From assembly GCA_027604705.1 (NCBI GenBank), contig JADHYV010000102.1:1-53468 (forward strand): DNA of 53,468 nt. The letters run 5' to 3'. This DNA comes from Allomyces arbusculus (Eukaryota; Blastocladiomycota; Blastocladiomycetes; Blastocladiales; Blastocladiaceae). Below the pieces are notes generated by a model. The model did not search any database. It was not told where the DNA came from and saw only the letters and a program-made list of their open reading frames with translations. Shown here in pieces: positions 26,755 through 37,631 of this stretch. How positions within the stretch are numbered: position 1 is the first letter of the stretch; the number at the start of each line of letters is the position of its first letter. The translations under genes were made by a program, and so were the position numbers.

Positions 26755-28768
26755 TCCGGGCCAGCGTGGGGGGCGTACTGGCGTGGCGTGTCGCGACGCG
26801 CCGCGGTGCAGTGCGGTGCAGCTCGTTGGACGTGTGTGCGCGCATGCGTCGCCCCGCTGGCCGGATCGGTCGTTTGGATGCCGTTTTTTTTTTTCGTTCA
26901 TTCTATCATTGTCGTTGCCGTCGGTCGGTCGGCCGGTTGCTGCCGCCGCCACGGCGCCCGTGTTCATTTTGTTTTCCGACTTTGATGGATTGATTCGCTG
27001 TGCTTATTTCTCGTTCCGTTCTCAACCGTTTTCTCTTCGATCCCCTCCCCTCTCCTCTCCTCCCCTCCGCGTTCGTCGTCGGCCATTGCGCGTGTGAGAC
27101 CCACCCTGATCGGCTCGCGTCCTCTCGTCCCTTCTCTCCTCTCCCTCCCCCTCCTCTCCCTCGATGTCGGTCCTTGACTCGCGATTATAGACTCTCTGGG
27201 TGCCATGATCTTGGATGATTGGACTTGAGTCTCGTCGGCGCGAGCGAGCGCGCGAGATTTGTGATCCATTCAGGCGAGAGCCTCGGCCAAACTGCTTCGC
27301 ACACGCACGTTTTTGCTCCTCCAACTTCAGCAAGAGTCTCAAATCTCAATCGCCACTTCGCGCAGCTCGTGCACCTCTTCGGAAAAATTTCAAGTTGCCA
27401 CCTACACCATCGCCGTCGTCTACTTGTCTCGATCTTCGCGTGCAACACCGCCACAGCTTTGGCCAACAAATGAACGATGCCGACATCGTCGCCGCTCAAT
27501 GACTTTCTGTAGCCGCCATGACGGCGCGCATCCGGTTGATGCTCAACAGATCCGAGCTTCGGCGATGCAAGGTCGACTGCGACTTCACACTGTCGCGGCT
27601 CAACAAGCATCCTCGATAATCGGCTCGCGAACCCGTGCCGTCTTGGTCTGCTCCACGACGTCCAGCTATCCGGGCGCCAGCGCGCGCGCGTCCCTCTTGC
27701 TTTCGTCAGTGTGGCGTCGGCGCGACAATTTACTTATTTGGCTGCATTTGGCTGGGCGTGTGGCGAGATCCCGCACTCGCTGCAGGTTCGAACCATGCCC
27801 AGCCCTCTCGCTTTTCCTTTTCGATCCGTGCGTCCGAAGACGTCGTCCAAACCCTTGCCAGACCAAGGACGAATCGTTTCTGGACGATCCAGGGCTCCCC
27901 CTGCGCCGGGCATCACTGGTGCCGGCGGGACATCATTGGCGCCGCCCGCTCGGTCCCCGCGACCCGACGCTATCGGCGCGTCGTGCGCCTTCTCTTCGGT
28001 AAGCAAAAACCCGGGCCGCGTCGTCACTGACGTCGTACGACCAGCCCCGAACCCAGCGCGCTTGCGCGGCGGCGGGCGTTCATCAAGTGTGTGCCAGCTT
28101 GGCGAGCTCGCAGTCGCGGCGGATCATTTGATCTGACTGCGCAATCGACGTGTGACCCTCGCACAATGGCCGACGCTTGCCTTTAGCGGCGGCGGCGTGC
28201 GTGCTGGACGTGGCGACGCCGTACGCTGAGTGGGTTGTGGCGAGGGCAATGGTTCATCCATAAAAAACCGCGCGCACTCAGCGGGCGAGAGAGCTGCGCG
28301 TGCGCCAGTTCTTCAGGCTGCTGGGCTTGGATCACTGACCCGTGGTTCTCTTCATTTGGTTCAGGGAGGTGAAGCGCGTGCTCTTTTTTTCTTGACTTTG
28401 GCTGCCGCCCGCCCCGCCCGCGCGGTTCCCGCTCGTCGTCGTTTCGTTTGAGCTCTGCAGGCTCTGCAAGTGGCCTGCAGATCAAGTCGGCCCGGTTTGC
28501 GCCCACACCGCGCGCGCAAGGTTCAAGAACGGTGGGTACGTTTGTACTTATTTGGTGTTCACGCGCCGTGTGGGAGGGGAGGTGACCACGCACCGTGGGC
28601 GTTTTGCGGTGTGGCGGTGGCTCTGTGTTGTTGCTGCTTGGACTGATCCGCTCTTGATCCAATGTAGTTTACCAGACGAGGAACACGCACCCAACGCTTC
28701 CCATCGCTTCGCGGTCGCGGTGACGGACAGCGCAGGCGCTGTCCCCGCATCTGGCTCTCGCGACCATC
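26755..28768. other. 2-kb intergenic region
   Basis: This holds the G-gamma 3' flank and the GPCR promoter. A T run (about 26886-26894) and pyrimidine-rich stretches near 27050-27160 are visible. None of the open frames has a recognisable domain. A palindromic B-box-like GGTTCGAACC at 27785-27794 is not accompanied by a foldable tRNA. Confidence 0.5.
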
Positions 28769-31700
28769 ATGATCACGCTGGTTCGCGTCGTGCTGTTAGC
28801 CCTGCTCGCGGTCGCGCTCGCAGCGCCACCAACGCACGCCAACGACCCTGTTCCTGTCCACCATGTCGCGCGCGGCTCGCCCGCTCCCGTCGCGTCGACT
28901 GGCGTCCCCGCCGTGCTTCACGGCGCGCGCCTGCTCGACCCTGCCCCTGCCCCACCATTGCCCGACTTCCCGGTCCCCGCCGGCGCGCATAACGCTTCAT
29001 CTTTGATCAAGATCGGCGTGCTACTGCCGCTCTCCTCGCCCGACGCGACGTACCGCAACATGTCGATCGCGGCGCTCAATGCGATCCGCCTCGCGGTGCA
29101 GCGATTTCAAACGGACCGAACGGAAGCACCGCTGCGCGCGTCGATGCGGAAAGCCGACGCGGCGATCCAGTTGGTCGTCGCTGACGAGTACGCGCCGGAC
29201 CGGCTCGATCTCGGGCGCGTGAATACTTCGATGAAGGTCCGGATCGGCGAGGCCGAGGTGGTGCCCGAGACCTGGGCCGCCCAGGCAATCCTATCGACGA
29301 TGGACCTGATTGTGAACCAGAAGGTGGCCGCGGTCGTGGGCGAGATGACGAGTCCGGTGACGCGGAACCAGGCGCTGATCACGTCAAGGTTCGAGATCTT
29401 GCAGTGCAGTTTCAGCGCGTCGCATCCGGACTTGTCGAACAAGAAGATGGTGCGTGGAGCGCGGCGGGGCGGCGACGAAGGGCGACGTGGTCAGGTGGAG
29501 AAGACTGATCATGACCGTGGGATTCATTCAGTACCCGTATTTTTTGCGCGCCATCGGGAGCGCTAAACTCTACGCGGAAGCAGTCGTGTCGCTCATCCAC
29601 CGGCTCGGCGTGTCGCACTATACAGTCCTAACCTCGACTGACGACTTTTCCACCGAGTGTGCGTGGTTTGACGAGCTAAAACCAATTTTCCGACAGAGTT
29701 GCTGATCATTTGCTTCGTATTATAGACACCCGAACAATGGAAAACGTCAAGGACATCGGCGTCGGCCCGGACCGCACGCTCCCGACAATCCAGAAACGGT
29801 TTTGGTTCACGTCGAACAAGGTGCGGGACAACATTGACGATACCCTCAACAAACTGACGGCCGATGCGACCGCGCCCCGGACCGTCTTTGTCTCGGCCAT
29901 CGACCAGCCCCAGACTGCATTGATCACCAAACTCAAGAGCCGCGGCCTGTTCAACAAGCAGTGGACGTGGATCCTGCTCAACAACATTACCGACACGTTC
30001 ATATCCGTCTACAAGGACCAGGCCGTGATTACCGGTAAAGACTCACCGCTGCTCGGCATCTTCATGGTCACGCCGCAGTCGGGCAACACGACCATCTACT
30101 TTGACGAGTTTGCGACCACGCTCGCGCGCGCGACCGGCCAGGAAATGTGGTACAATGAACCGCAGGCCTACACGTGTGCCGGCGTCTTGCTTCGCGCGCT
30201 GTTGCGGTACGTGGATGGCGATGCAAATGTTGCCAAGGAACTTGCGCAGGGCCAGTTCCCCAAGGGCCCAATCACGCTGCAGGCCGTGAACCAGACTGGC
30301 TGGCACTCGCCGATCGGGCTCGCGCAGTTTGATACCGAGGGCAGTTTCTTTGCAGGCGCCGACGTGCTCAATTGGCGGCCAATCACGGATAATACGGAGG
30401 ATAAATCGACGATCATGGGCCCGGTGGTCGTGTTGCGCAAGCCGTACGCGGGTGCGCCAATGGGGTTGCCGCCGGGCGGGACCGTGGGGCCGATGATGCC
30501 GGACGGGTCGCGGCCCGTGAACGATTACGATGGTAGTTTACGAGGTGTGTGACCAGATTTTTCGCCTGTGTTTTTGTGAACGCGACTGATCATAGATTTG
30601 CGCCCGACGTAGACATTACAATTTCGATTGCGAGCGGGTCGCTGATCGCCACGTTCCTTCTCGTGCTCATCAGCATCGGCACGCTCTCGGCCATCACGAT
30701 CCTTGGCGTGATTTTCTTCTGGCGGGACGCACCCGAAGTGCGCGCCATCTCGCCCGTTTTCTGTTACCAGATTCTGATCGGGATCATTTCCATGTACGTG
30801 AGCCTCACGTTCGAAGTCCTGCCGCGGCCCAGCGGACCCTCTGGCGACCTTTACTGCAACGTCTCGGCCGTGTCTGGCGTGCTCGCCGTGGGCCTCGTCG
30901 TCGGCAACATTGTCGCCAAGAACCACCGCATCTGGCAGCTCTTCGGCAGCCCGTTCCTGTTCCGGCAAGGTCTGCCGGATAGCAAGATTCTGCAAATCTC
31001 CGTCGTGCTCGTGGCCATGGACGTGGCGCTTGCCGCGTCGTGGGTGTTTGAGAGCCCATTCCGCATCATTCACGTCAAGGACGATGCCGCCAACGTGAAG
31101 TACGACATGTGCATTGCCGGGTTACCCGTTGACGTCACATCGATTACCAGCGCGGCCGAAATCCCAAGCATGTACGAGAATTGGGTATTTTGGGCGATTT
31201 GCGTGTATAATTTCGGCCTGATCGTCTACGGGTGCGTGCTCGCGTGGAAAACGCGCCGGATCCCGGTCGCGGGGTACTCGGAGTCGAGCGCGATTGCGAT
31301 TTCCGTGTATAATATCGCGCTCGGTGGCACAATTTTGCTGCCGACCTATTTTTCGTACGTGCCTCGTCTGGTCTCGCGCCCGTATAGATTCCAGTGCTGA
31401 CGATATTGGAGACCTGATCAGGCCGCTCAACCGCATGTACCTCGTCTCTTTCTCGCTGCAGCTGCTCGTCATCTACTTTTGCACAACGTTCGCCATGCTC
31501 GCCTTTTTTGTCCCGCCGCTCTACTCGCTCTGGCTGCGGCGCGCGCAGGCCGATCTCGGCGACCTCAACCTCGTGCAGGCCGAGATATTCAAGAACGCGA
31601 CGACGACGACAACAGGCGGCGCCGCGACAGCTTCGAGCGGGAACCACGGGTCCACGTCGGCGTCGGCCGCTGGGTCGCGCTCATCCATGCTCTGGCCGAG

Positions 31701-32742
31701 TCTCGACCGCACGCAGGTCGATTTCGGCGGCGGAGCCGGTCCGACCAACGAGACGCGGTACAACCCGTTCCAGCCGGTCGAGCCGACGACAACGACGACG
31801 GGCAGTAACAGCGCCGTGGTCACCGAGTCGGGCGAGGTCCGGCGGCCATCAATCCGACAACGGCGCGGCGTACGCACGATTCCGCGACCGATCACGACCA
31901 CGTCGTCGGTCCTGACCACCTGGCCCGACGTCAGTGCCGAGGCCGTGACGGGCACGCTGGTCGTCAAGAAATCGCACCGGCTCGGTGCCTGGCTCGGTAA
32001 GCTCGCTGCGTTCTGGGACCGATGGCAGGTTGTGCACGTCGTGCTCGTTCCGCACCAACGGCTCCTGGTCCTGCGCCCCGTCGACACCAAGGACGAGCGT
32101 GCGGTGCCGAGTTACGACACGTTCACTGTCCAGGCGGTCCTCGGGCCCGACGACGTCGCGCGCCGCCGGTGCCGCGCCAAGCAGAACGCGCTCGCCACGC
32201 ATATTCTACCGGAACGGACGTGGTACGTGCCGCGACGCGCCGGGTCGGGGAAGAGCACGACGTCATCGCCACGGACCCCCGCGGACGTGGGGGCGGCGCG
32301 GACCAAGTCGGAGATCAACGCGCGCATATCGGCCGGGCAGGCGATCGAGCTCTCGCCGGTGGTTCCGTCGCCGCCGCCACCAACGTACCGCAAGAACTCG
32401 CCGCGGTCGCCACACGGGACGATCGCCAGTGCGGGCACGCCCGTGCGGTGTGACTGTGTGTCACGCACGCCCGTGGATCCGGAAATCGCAGCGGACACGA
32501 ACGCGCCCGTGGTTGTGGTCGACTGGCGCCAGTTTGAGGTGCTGTCGGCCTACCACAACTACGTGTTCCAGACGGAGACCGAGGAACAGACCGAGTTGTG
32601 GGTCAAGGTCTTGCGGCAAGCGCTGGCAGGGGTGCCCTGCGCGTCGGCGGGACGAAGGCCGCTGTCGCTCGCGACGCCAGCGACAGGGACGACGCCGCGG
32701 GCGGGGGAGAGCGGAGAGTCGGTGCCAACGCGAGATATGTGA
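28769..32742 (+). CDS. Class C (GABA-B-like) GPCR with PH-like cytoplasmic tail
   Basis: Predicted plasma-membrane receptor signalling to heterotrimeric G proteins. Five exons, 28769-29449, 29532-29658, 29726-30548, 30596-31354 and 31422-32742, give 1236 aa. Residues 1-24 are a signal peptide. A periplasmic-binding/ANF-type ligand domain follows (IKIGVLLPLSSPD; VAAVVGEMTSPVT; YPYFLRAIGS), to about 540. Seven hydrophobic helices span about 553-832, beginning ISIASGSLIATFLLVLIS and ending LQLLVIYFCTTFAMLAFF. The 400-residue tail is Ser/Thr-rich, then contains a PH-like fold: TGTLVVKK, WQVVHVVLVPHQRLLVL, a long insert, and VFQTETEEQTELWVKVLRQA with the invariant Trp. The donor at 30549 (GTGACC) is the weakest junction. 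No Cys-rich domain lies before TM1, as in GABA-B receptors. The ligand is unknown. Confidence 0.85.
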
Positions 32743-33646: not shown

Positions 33647-36600
33647 ATGCAGACCACCAAGTCCCCCAACCGGCTCAAGAAGGTCGTGAGCTTGAGGTCC
33701 GCCACCCCCCCCCCCTCCCCCTCCCATCCATCACACCTCCAAGGATTCTCTCTGACCGCACTCGCCCCACCTGACAGGACGTCCTACAGCGGCGACACCT
33801 CGCGCGGCGCCTCGTCCGACGCGCTCAACGTGACCGGGTCGATGGACAGTGTCACGATGCCGGCCCCGCCCGAGATTTCGTTGACGGGGCCCGACACGGT
33901 CCCGTCCACGCCCACGACCGCTGCGGCGGCCGCACCGGCACCGGCGGTCCCGGTGCCGGTGCTGGCGGCACCGCAGGAGGACGCACCGGACCCCGTGCGC
34001 AACACCGACGCGACCAAAGAGTTCCGGCGCGAGTTGAATGCGGGCGTGCACGGGATCTTTGAGGCGTTTCGCGTGGACTTAGGCAAAATGGAACTGCGCA
34101 TCAAGGCTGCGAATATTAGTTCGCTGGAAAAGGTGCGGCCACGGCATGCGCGGTGGTGGGGATGGCGGTCACTAACGTGTCGTCGGGTGGTTGTTAGGAT
34201 GAGCTCTCGTTTTTTGACAAGCAGGACGAAAAGGAACTGCAGCGGCTCAAGGACCGGCAGGCGCAGGAGCTCGAGCGCGTGAAGCGCGCGTTTGCAACGA
34301 CGCTCGAGTCGCGCAACTTGCGCAAGCGCGGTAAAGTCCTGCAGGCGTCAACCAACTTCACGGCCAAGAACCGCGACATTATCATTCAGTGCGCTGCTTT
34401 CCTATCCCGCGTCGTCGCCACCGATCAGTTTCCTGATCTCTCTTTCGCCGCACGAACAGGGAGCAGGACAAGGCGCAGAGCGTCACGGCCGAGGTCAAGA
34501 CCATGCTCGACGACCACCGCACGGCGTTTGAGGAACTGCTCGAGCAGACGGAATTGCGGCACACCAAGACGCGCAAGCAATTATCGGCCTCGCAGGAACG
34601 CAAGATTCAGGACAAGCGCACGCTGATCGAGCTCGAGACGGCGCACATGACGCACGAAATGCGCCAGGACCGGCTCAAGGACTTCCAGTTCAAGATGAAC
34701 CACCAGAAGTCGCTGGTACGGATCGGGACCGAGGTGGAGATGCACCGCGTGGGTCTCGGTTGGCTCACGCGTTTCTTTTGCGCTCGGGGATGATGTAGGA
34801 TAAGAAAATGGCCGAGCACTTGCGCGATGCCCAAGCGCTCGAGATTCGCCAGATGAAGGAGATGTTTGACCTCGAAATCAAGTCGCTCGAGGAAACGTAC
34901 GTGTAGACACGGATCTCCCTCTCCACTGTCTCTGGCCGAACTAACGCTCATCCCCCCGCCCTCCCACGCTCCGCACCCGTATAGCCACAACCTCAAGGCC
35001 GCCAAGGCGCGCGACCTCGTGGAACTGCAGGAAACGCACCGGCGCGACGTGCAAAAAGCCAAGGACGTGATTCGCGACGTCGAGTTTCTCGTGCGCACGA
35101 CCGACGTGACCTTGCGGCACGAGGCCAACCTGCACGCGTTGCAGGCATTGCACGCCGAAGAAATCAAGATGGTCGTGGCGCGGCAGGACCAGTTGCGCGC
35201 CGGCCGGATGCGCAAGTGGCGCGAGATTCTGCGGTCCGAGACAGGGCTCTCGGGCGACTTCGCCGCGGAACAGGATGCCGGGCTCGCGCTCGCGTCGCTC
35301 TTCATGGACCCGGAGACGACGATCACCAAACGCGCGGCCGCGAACGCGGTGGGCGACGGGGAGGATCCCGCGGCGGCGGCGGCGGCGGCGGCCACGACCA
35401 GTACGGACTCGGCGCTCGAGGCGGCGCTTGCGTCGCTCAAACTGAGCGTCATGGACGCTGAGGCCGCGGTGAATGGCAAGATTCTCGACCTGGGCAGCGC
35501 CCTGGTCAATGACGGCACCGCGGCGCCGGGTGCGGCCGAGAGCAGTGCGGCGGTCCATGGCACGCACGCGCAGCGCGACGAGCGCGAACGGTTGCAGCAG
35601 AAACTGGAGCGGATTCGCGAGGAGTTGCGGCAATTGCGTGACAGGCATAAGGCGCAGTTGCGCGACCTGGTCAAGAAGCAGCAAGAGGAGGTGGCCGTCT
35701 ACGAGACGACGATCAAGCGGCGCATCACTGACTTGACGGCACAGCACAAGCGGCGCACGGCGCAGTTGCTCGAGCAGCAGCGCATGGAACTCGAGAGTCT
35801 GCACGCGACGCAGGCCAAGGAGTCGGCCATGGAAGAGTCGGTGCGGTCGGCCGAACACAAGATGCTCATGGAGCGCAAGACGCTTAACTCGGTGCTGGTG
35901 CGTGATCCATGGGGTGATTTGTTGGTTGATTGCTTTCGTCCCCGAAAACTCACGGTCGACCCTTTTCTCGATCCAATAGGAGGTGACCGTGGACGGTATC
36001 ATCAGCATCACGCCGCTGGGCATCATCACGCGGTTCAATGCCGCGGCCGAGGCCATTTTCGGGTACTCGGCCGGCGAAGTACTGGGCCGCAACATCAAGA
36101 TCTTGCAGCCCGAGGAAATCGCGGTCGTGCACGACGACCTGCTCAAGAACTACCTCGAGACGGGCGTGCGGCGCGTGATTGGGATTGGCCGTGTCGCCCA
36201 GGGCCGGCGCCGCGACGGCAGTCTGTTCCCTCTGCACCTGTCGATTTCCGAGGTCAAGGAAAACGACATGCATCTGTTTACGGGGATCGTGCGCGACTTG
36301 ACGGCCGAAGTGGCTGCGCAAGAGGCCGACCGCCGCGAGACGGAGCGCAAGCGCACGCAAATGGAGCTCTTGATTCAGCAGTTGGCGCGCGAACGGTCCA
36401 AGTCGGCCGACTTGATTCATTCGATGCTGCCGGCGTCGATTGTCACGCGCATGCTGCAGGGCGACATTGTTCCGCCCGAGAGCTTTGATGACGCGACGGT
36501 GCTGTTTACCGAGATTGATGGGTTCTCGGAACTGTGCTCGCGGTACACGGCGCTCGATGTCGTCGATTTGCTCGATACGCTCTACTGCGTGTTTGACGAG

Positions 36601-37631
36601 TGGGTTCTTCTTGTTTCTCGCCCACACTTGCGGAACTGATTGGATGAACTGACCTTGCCCGACCTCTAGGATCCTGCTCAACTACAAGGTCTACAAAGTG
36701 GAGACGATCCAGGACTCGCTTGTGGTCGTGGGCGGTGTGCCCGAGCCCGACGAGGACCATGCGAGCGAGATTGCCAAGTTGGCGCTGCACTTCACCAAGG
36801 CCATGACCAAGATCCGCATGCGCAACAACCCGGACGTCGAGCTCAAGCTCAAGATTGGCATTCACTCGGGCGCGGTCGTCGCAGGCGTTGTCGGCAAAAA
36901 GTGCTCGCGGTACTGCCTGTTTGGCGACACGGTCAACACGGCGTCGCGTAGTACGTTTCTCTTTCACTCGCTATCCCCGATCCCCCGCCGCGTCCCTCTG
37001 ACGCCGCCCCATTGCTGTGTAGTGAAATCCACCTCGGAACCCTCATGCATCCAACTCTCCACCGCCGCGCAAAAGCGGCTCGCCGCGCGTAAGGAGCCGT
37101 TCCAGATGCAGCGCCGCGGCGAAGTGTCGGTCAAGGGCAAGGGGACCATGGAGACCTTCTGGCTCACGGGGCTCGAAGGATTCGAGCCAGACTTGGGCGT
37201 CGTCGACCGCATGATGGTCTCGCAGCGGTCGCTAGCGTCGTTTGCGACCACGTCCTTCTCGGAACTGCAGAGCGCGCAGTCGACCAAGGCGGCAGGGTCG
37301 GCGGCCGCCGCAGCAGCAGCAGCGGCAGCGCAGAATGGGTTTCCAAACCCGGCGCTCCGGCGGCCGGCGAGTCCGGGGCGCGCGTAGGCCGCCGCGCACG
37401 CCAAAGGCTGCGGAGGCGTGTGCGGTCGTGGCTGTTGTGGATGAGAAACCGGGGCCGGGGCTCGCGAGGACGGCAACGCCGGTTGGGAACGTGGTCGTGC
37501 GTCGTCAGCCCGCGTGGGAGGACTGGCACGGGTGGCGTGGCGTCGTTGTGAAGGGACTCGTTTACTGGGCGTCGATTCTCGTGGTGGTGTCAGCGGTGCT
37601 GTTTGCGTGGGTGCCGCGCCGGCGGAAATGA
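33647..37631 (+). CDS. Coiled-coil/PAS/class III guanylyl cyclase with C-terminal membrane anchor
   Basis: Predicted to make cGMP from GTP. Ten exons (33647-33696, 33778-34132, 34198-34388, 34460-34715, 34799-34896, 34985-35897, 35980-36599, 36670-36950, 37023-37338, 37388-37631) give 1107 aa. Residues about 110-620 are long charged coiled coil (ELQRLKDRQAQELERVKRAF). A PAS domain spans 622-731 (DGIISITPLGIITRFN; NIKILQPEEIAVVHDD), then a dimerisation helix ending LIHSMLPASIVTRML. The cyclase domain covers about 790-960: FTEIDGF, YKVETIQDSLVVVGGVP, CLFGDTVNTASRM. Glu839 and Cys910 are the guanine-selecting pair, Asp843 binds metal and Asn917/Arg921 are the transition-state pair. The first metal position is Glu799 instead of Asp. 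The last exon adds GLVYWASILVVVSAVLFAW and a basic end, a tail anchor. Without the 49-nt intron at 37339 the frame stops at 37387. Confidence 0.85.

Follow-up and report, generated by a model that had tools for sequence, protein, structure and literature searches.

Allomyces arbusculus, an aquatic fungus with zoospores, carries a nucleotide cyclase gene, here called W, at positions 33647–37387 on the forward strand of contig JADHYV010000102.1 (NCBI GenBank assembly GCA_027604705.1; 25.9 Mb in 197 contigs). The window analysed is this entire contig, C102, of 53,468 nucleotides. With moderate confidence, W is best explained as one subunit of a soluble guanylyl cyclase, with a haem-PAS domain of the FixL type; it would be the beta-like partner in a heterodimer whose other chain is one of its two paralogues in the same genome, C9 or C16, which are named after their contigs. 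This explanation is built on the computed gene structure and domain order, the FixL-like sequence and predicted fold of the PAS domain, the residues of its haem pocket, and the complementary active-site residues of the three proteins.

Gene Structure and Paralogues

W is a real gene. Its coding frame runs unbroken through 1042 residues, from the ATG at 33647 to the TAG at 37385–37387, and the splice model divides it into nine exons separated by eight introns of 65–88 nt, all with GT-AG boundaries. The protein consists of a disordered start, a charged helical region, a PAS domain, a signalling helix, and a class III cyclase domain. Pfam assigns residues 786–970 to Guanylate_cyc (PF00211, E 7.6e-57, well above the cut-off) and finds PAS matches within residues 619–730 (E 1.3e-11 and 3.5e-10), while the linker at residues 739–778 gives a weak HNOBA match (E 0.0039, under its cut-off). 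A first-pass annotation made from the sequence alone had described a spliced guanylyl cyclase with a PAS sensor, and both the spliced frame and these two domains are confirmed, although the product ends at the TAG given above.

When the genome is searched with the PAS and cyclase portion of W, the two strongest matches outside W are C9 and C16, and the helical portion matches these two proteins only. Their spliced products have 1040 residues in six exons (C9) and 1015 residues in nine exons (C16), and full-length alignment gives 41% and 40% identity to W, respectively, distributed as 35–38% in the helical region, 65–69% in the PAS domain, and 48–51% in the cyclase domain; between C9 and C16, identity is 72%. 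On the strength of their common helical region and PAS domain, the three proteins form one family. All of them end in unconserved polar or low-complexity tails, with 58 residues past the cyclase domain in C9, 58 in C16, and 70 in W.

Complementary Active Sites in W and its Paralogues

The residues of the active site were compared in a fixed order (first metal-binding Asp, base-selecting Glu, second metal Asp, base-selecting Cys, catalytic Asn, and Arg), with NPR1, GC-C, CYG12, and human soluble guanylyl cyclase (sGC, in animals the nitric oxide receptor) as references. The complete set, D-E-D-C-N-R, is found in NPR1, GC-C, CYG12, both rhodopsin cyclases, and C36_177, a further cyclase gene of this genome. 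W reads E-E-D-C-N-R, and C9 and C16 both read D-E-D-T-T-K; for comparison, sGC alpha-1 reads D-E-D-C-T-K and sGC beta-1 reads G-E-D-C-N-R. The combination of Glu839 and Cys910 marks W as a predicted guanylyl rather than adenylyl cyclase. However, W does not hold both metal-binding Asp residues in one chain, since Glu799 stands at the first position and Asp843 at the second, and a partner is proposed to supply them. In their aligned residues, W holds what C9 and C16 lack, and vice versa, as do the beta and alpha subunits of sGC, with the same Thr and Lys on the alpha-like side. These residues are thus split between two chains in the alpha/beta manner, and the pairing of the chains themselves is proposed from this split.

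Some observations weigh against this pairing. Glu799 is a conservative change from Asp, and Asp801 lies two residues further on, so W may bind metal alone, and activity of a homodimer is possible. Moreover, the base-selecting Cys is Thr in C9 and C16, whereas sGC alpha-1 has retained it, and a tree of 13 cyclase domains leaves W and both sGC subunits unresolved, so the tree does not decide between common descent and convergence with sGC. Nevertheless, the split probably arose independently of that in sGC, because the shared helical region and PAS domain unite W with C9 and C16.

One alternative is a homodimeric haem-PAS guanylyl cyclase, in which Glu799, perhaps together with Asp801, serves the metal, and C9 and C16 act separately as inactive or regulatory proteins. 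In its favour are the conservative change to Glu799, the nearby Asp801, and the presence of every other catalytic residue in W. However, C9 and C16 keep exactly the residues lost in W and have lost those that W keeps, and both are retained as intact full-length genes of the same layout, which makes the homodimer unlikely.

A FixL-like PAS Domain

The PAS domain of W is very similar to that of FixL. In a phmmer search against all PDB sequences, the top 13 matches are haem-PAS proteins, FixL with E values from 5e-26 to 7.5e-25 and DosP from 1e-13 to 1e-11, and the next match is a LOV protein (E 6e-7). FixL is also the best partial match in NCBIfam, with a score far under the full-length cut-off because the PAS domain alone is shared. 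An AlphaFold model of the domain, with W and 57 of 80 bacterial relatives as input, reached a predicted local distance difference test score (pLDDT) of 87; an alignment-free run gave 49 and was not used. Submitted to Foldseek, this model retrieves FixL haem domains at ranks 1–20, with a best template modelling (TM) score of 0.94 at 0.8 Å, followed by DosP, while the first LOV domain has a TM score of 0.73.

The residues of the predicted pocket point in the same direction. FixL is described as binding its haem through His200 and contacting the ligand through Arg220 (PMC10765370); the corresponding His672 and Arg692 of W are kept in all three paralogues, and the distal Ile215, Leu236, and Ile238 of Bradyrhizobium japonicum FixL (BjFixL) are Val, Leu, and Ile in W. 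Among bacterial relatives (80 kept of at least 490 confirmed, fetched by patterns excluding the scored positions), the His is kept in 78, the Arg in 77, and both in 75. Thus, W has a sequence and predicted fold closest to FixL, together with the proximal His and the distal Arg of a FixL-type haem-PAS domain, and haem binding may be expected from them. Of the ligand or redox sensing that the first-pass annotation proposed for the PAS domain, a ligand sensor is likely. One residue of the pocket speaks against a haem-PAS domain: Arg206 of BjFixL, which is described as binding a haem propionate and as mattering for signalling (PMC10765370), is replaced by Asn in all three proteins. Of the same 80 bacterial relatives, 30 carry Asn at this position and 19 carry Arg.

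A FixL-like PAS domain without haem, working only as a dimerisation and signal-relay module or binding another ligand, would accommodate the replaced Arg206, and a cofactor is not proven by similarity of sequence; the PAS domain of sGC is such a relay. Nonetheless, His672 and Arg692 are kept throughout the three paralogues and the FixL match is far better than any to LOV PAS domains, which leaves the haem-free domain improbable.

The Helical Region

W likely possesses a long helical region upstream of its PAS domain. The first-pass annotation had proposed a 500-residue coiled coil, of which the long, charged, proline-free stretches stand, but not their continuity: there are two of them, divided by an Ala-rich low-complexity segment (residues 405–517, 28% Ala), and a heptad-like pattern at positions a and d, compared with shuffled sequences, is clear only in the second (z 3.4) and not in the first (z 1.2; 2.5 and 1.6 in the paralogues). 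The 306 helical-region columns that align gap-free among W, C9, and C16 are what in-register pairing would need. No relative of the helical region was found in the viral contigs scanned with it.

Proposed Mechanism and Ligand

From these features, we infer that W binds haem and a gas and pairs with a paralogue, together with its ligand, direction of response, cell location, and cellular role. In-register helices would join W with C9 or C16, and each PAS domain would carry a haem, bound in W to His672. The haem would bind O2 (possibly NO or CO), with Arg692 contacting the ligand, and the change on binding would pass through the signalling helix and alter the dimer, opening or closing a single complete active site. 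To this composite site, C9 or C16 would give the two metal-binding Asp residues, and W would contribute its base-selecting pair, Glu and Cys, together with its catalytic Asn and Arg. The product, cyclic GMP (cGMP), would act downstream, perhaps in the zoospore. Since O2 is reported to inhibit the FixL kinase (PMC10765370), it may be guessed that cGMP rises as O2 falls.

The ligand is probably O2: a FixL-like pocket favours it over NO, as does the lack of any NO synthase or H-NOX family match in the genome. The genome searches were carried out exon by exon, so that split domains can be missed: for H-NOX (HNOB), Pfam gave no match in W or in the genome (the control matched in 1 of 14 genomes), and for the NO synthase oxygenase domain (PF02898) no match in the genome (the control matched in 2 of 14). 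By the N-terminal H-NOX mark, which it does not carry, W is not an sGC. The lack of a PF02898 match gives NO no support as the native ligand, nor does it exclude it. For Blastocladiella, a pathway from Ca2+ through NO to cGMP has been reported (PMC10889981, citing Vieira 2009).

In its widest form, this interpretation makes W a eukaryotic O2 receptor that produces cGMP: a FixL-type haem-PAS protein, active as an obligate heterodimer, with an sGC-like split reached by convergence, serving as a gas-to-cGMP switch of zoosporic fungi that do not have H-NOX. This we put forward tentatively, at somewhat short of even confidence. Light-driven cGMP signalling through rhodopsin cyclases is known in these fungi (PMC4046227), and none of the titles and abstracts listed from the open-access literature, outside which most subscription papers lie, describes a guanylyl cyclase with a haem-PAS domain in a fungus, which does not prove that there is none. 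If W is a haem-PAS cyclase, it would be a concrete candidate gas receptor where no H-NOX or NO synthase oxygenase match turned up, and would link a bacterial-style oxygen sensor with eukaryotic cGMP. W, C9, and C16 would also be an instance, apparently independent, of a cyclase dimer turned asymmetric, with a possible use as an oxygen-gated cGMP tool.

The Proposed C-Terminal Membrane Anchor

On the other hand, the first-pass annotation had seen the defining novelty of W in a C-terminal membrane anchor, which would require one more splice to bypass the stop at 37387. Positions 37389–37628 do encode a hydrophobic helix with a basic end (19-residue Kyte-Doolittle mean 2.35), but in a different frame and beyond this stop; the supported W model has no such helix (top 19-residue mean 1.60). 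The helix is not a trivial chance event, because a mean of at least 2.3 near the end occurs in only 3 of 1056 open stretches (at least 80 codons, 140 kb of genome), itself included. Its frame has the best codon score of the three, −0.16 per codon. This score is nevertheless lower than the 5% point of coding sequences (0.06; median 0.59) and only slightly higher than the 95% point of noncoding ones (−0.20; median −0.52). Among the coding sequences were W, C9, C16, and three stretches of the window picked by eye; the noncoding set consists of three stretches assumed noncoding.

Donors at 37180–37387 can be connected to the tail frame by 169 GT/GC-AG joins, and those with a GT donor were given scores from splice matrices built on the 21 introns of the family. 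Among the twelve top-scoring joins shown, two are within the family intron length (65–91 nt). The better, 37297–37387 (91 nt), has a donor (AGG/GTCGGC) of 1.9 and an acceptor of 3.7, against medians of 6.6 (donor range 1.5–10.7) and 4.8 in the 21 introns, and the other, 37252–37333, scores 2.9 and 0.3.

The genome holds no second copy of the tail helix, and no comparable helix was found in open frames up to 300 nt past the stop in any of five other cyclase genes (C9, C16, C36_177, C36_132, and C46; maxima 1.1–1.6), that is, in neither of the two close paralogues nor in the three further genes. This comparison with relatives, made within the genome itself, goes against the anchor. After splice scoring, codon bias, and hydrophobicity controls, the anchor was set aside because C9 and C16 stop at a comparable place, and a tail-anchored cyclase is very improbable. 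The stretch is most likely 3' untranslated sequence, of which a rare isoform may make use, and no membrane anchor is expected in W.

Other Cyclases and Neighbouring Genes

The genome has two rhodopsin (PF01036) matches, on contigs C7 and C15, both adjoining cyclase matches. These rhodopsin-guanylyl cyclase loci (L043, C7:511500-521000; L042, C15:366500-376000) have complete catalytic residues, and the cyclase domain on C7 is identical to the solved rhodopsin-cyclase chains 6ao9 and 6sir at 153 and 151 of 176 positions, respectively. The chain 6SIR is from Catenaria anguillulae, and chytrid RGC1 and RGC2 are given as ~60% identical to such cyclases (PMC8815786). Pfam finds no microbial rhodopsin domain in W, so that the first-pass annotation was right to keep W apart from the rhodopsin fusion, which has its own two loci.

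Three more cyclase genes are C36_177, C36_132, and C46, the first two lying 45 kb apart on the same contig. In the active-site alignment, C36_132 reads D-E-D-A-G-L and C46 reads D-E-D-A-A-Q; by these residues they look like a possible second alpha-like set, with C36_177, which has all six residues, as a possible partner. No PAS domain was matched by Pfam in the open frames scanned in these three, which do not cover the whole genes. In one frame of another cyclase gene (L044, C9:338500-348000), a PP2C phosphatase domain precedes the cyclase domain, an order like that of fungal Cyr1-type adenylyl cyclases. Finally, L041 (C45:20500-30400) holds a long frame in which the cyclase domain is matched by three stretches apart from one another; to the eye, this frame also has many hydrophobic segments, much like a two-part membrane adenylyl cyclase.

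Just upstream of W lies a gene for a class C G protein-coupled receptor (GPCR; 28724–32742, forward strand; 7tm_3 E 3e-31, frame 30537–31400), and another 7tm_3 match is found just downstream of the C16 paralogue (C16:318732-319397). The neighbouring receptor was considered as a partner of W and rejected: in the genome, its ectodomain matches only itself and one on C13, and not that of the receptor beside C16. Since the ectodomains do not match, the shared GPCR neighbourhood of W and C16 looks like chance. The genome contains 88 exon-wise 7tm_3 matches with E ≤ 0.001, many of them clustered (C50, C88, C98), so that class C GPCRs seem to have expanded strongly.

Table 1. Positions of W, its parts, and further cyclase genes (window coordinates unless a contig is named).
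Feature	Position	Strand	Support
W, whole coding region, nine exons	33647-33696, 33778-34132, 34198-34388, 34460-34715, 34799-34896, 34985-35897, 35980-36599, 36670-36950, 37023-37387	+	Splice model; full-length alignment with C9 and C16
First charged helical stretch, residues ~95-405 (including introns)	34010-35249	+	38% charged, proline-free; a/d z 1.2; gapless 306 columns with both paralogues
Second charged helical stretch, residues ~517-615, adjoining PAS	35583-35879	+	42% charged, proline-free; a/d z 3.4
FixL-like PAS domain	35980-36306	+	phmmer against PDB; NCBIfam; AlphaFold; Foldseek
His672 codon, aligned to haem-ligand His200 of BjFixL	36130-36132	+	PDB sequence match; kept in C9 and C16
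Arg692 codon, aligned to ligand-contacting Arg220 of BjFixL	36190-36192	+	PDB sequence match; kept in C9 and C16
Signalling-helix linker, PAS to cyclase	36307-36474	+	Gap-free across three paralogues; weak sub-cut-off HNOBA match
Class III cyclase domain (including introns)	36475-37177	+	PF00211; best PDB match NPR1, E 6e-53
Glu799 codon, replacing first metal-binding Asp	36511-36513	+	Cyclase alignment
Base-selecting Glu839 (36701-36703) to second metal Asp843 (36713-36715)	36701-36715	+	Cyclase alignment
Base-selecting Cys910 (36914-36916), catalytic Asn917 (36935-36937), Arg921 (36947-36949)	36914-36949	+	Cyclase alignment
Proposed tail-anchor frame, most likely 3' untranslated	37389-37631	+	Past the W stop; helix unseen in relatives
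C36_177 (L038)	C36:173000-182500
C36_132 (L039)	C36:128000-137500
C46 (L040)	C46:68500-78000

Comparison with Known Systems

The rhodopsin guanylyl cyclases (BeGC1, CaRhGC, and NeoR/RGC) share with W the making of cGMP in zoosporic fungi, and some are described as heterodimeric; however, W has no rhodopsin, and RGC1 and RGC2 are reported to keep all catalytic residues, unlike W, C9, and C16 (PMC8815786). DosP from E. coli resembles the proposed design in joining a haem-PAS sensor to an enzyme of nucleotide second messengers, and its PAS domain is similar to that of W (E 1e-13), but it is described as a cyclic-di-GMP phosphodiesterase and not a cyclase (PMC4263535).

The rhizobial FixL proteins (BjFixL, 1dp6/1drm; SmFixL, 1d06) match W in PAS sequence (E 5e-26 to 1e-25), predicted fold (TM 0.94), and the His and Arg pair. 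Contrary to FixL, where the domain drives a histidine kinase, the PAS domain of W precedes a class III guanylyl cyclase, and Arg206 is replaced by Asn. FixL-like haem proteins occur in Chlamydomonas, and PAS-bearing guanylyl cyclases in algae. Animal sGC alpha-1/beta-1 shows the same split of the active site, with Asn to Thr and Arg to Lys changes also seen in the alpha-like C9 and C16, and the same order of PAS, helix, and cyclase. The two differ in that sGC carries an H-NOX domain, of which none was found in W or in the genome, in that the PAS domain of W itself looks haem-bearing, and in the long N-terminal helical region of W.

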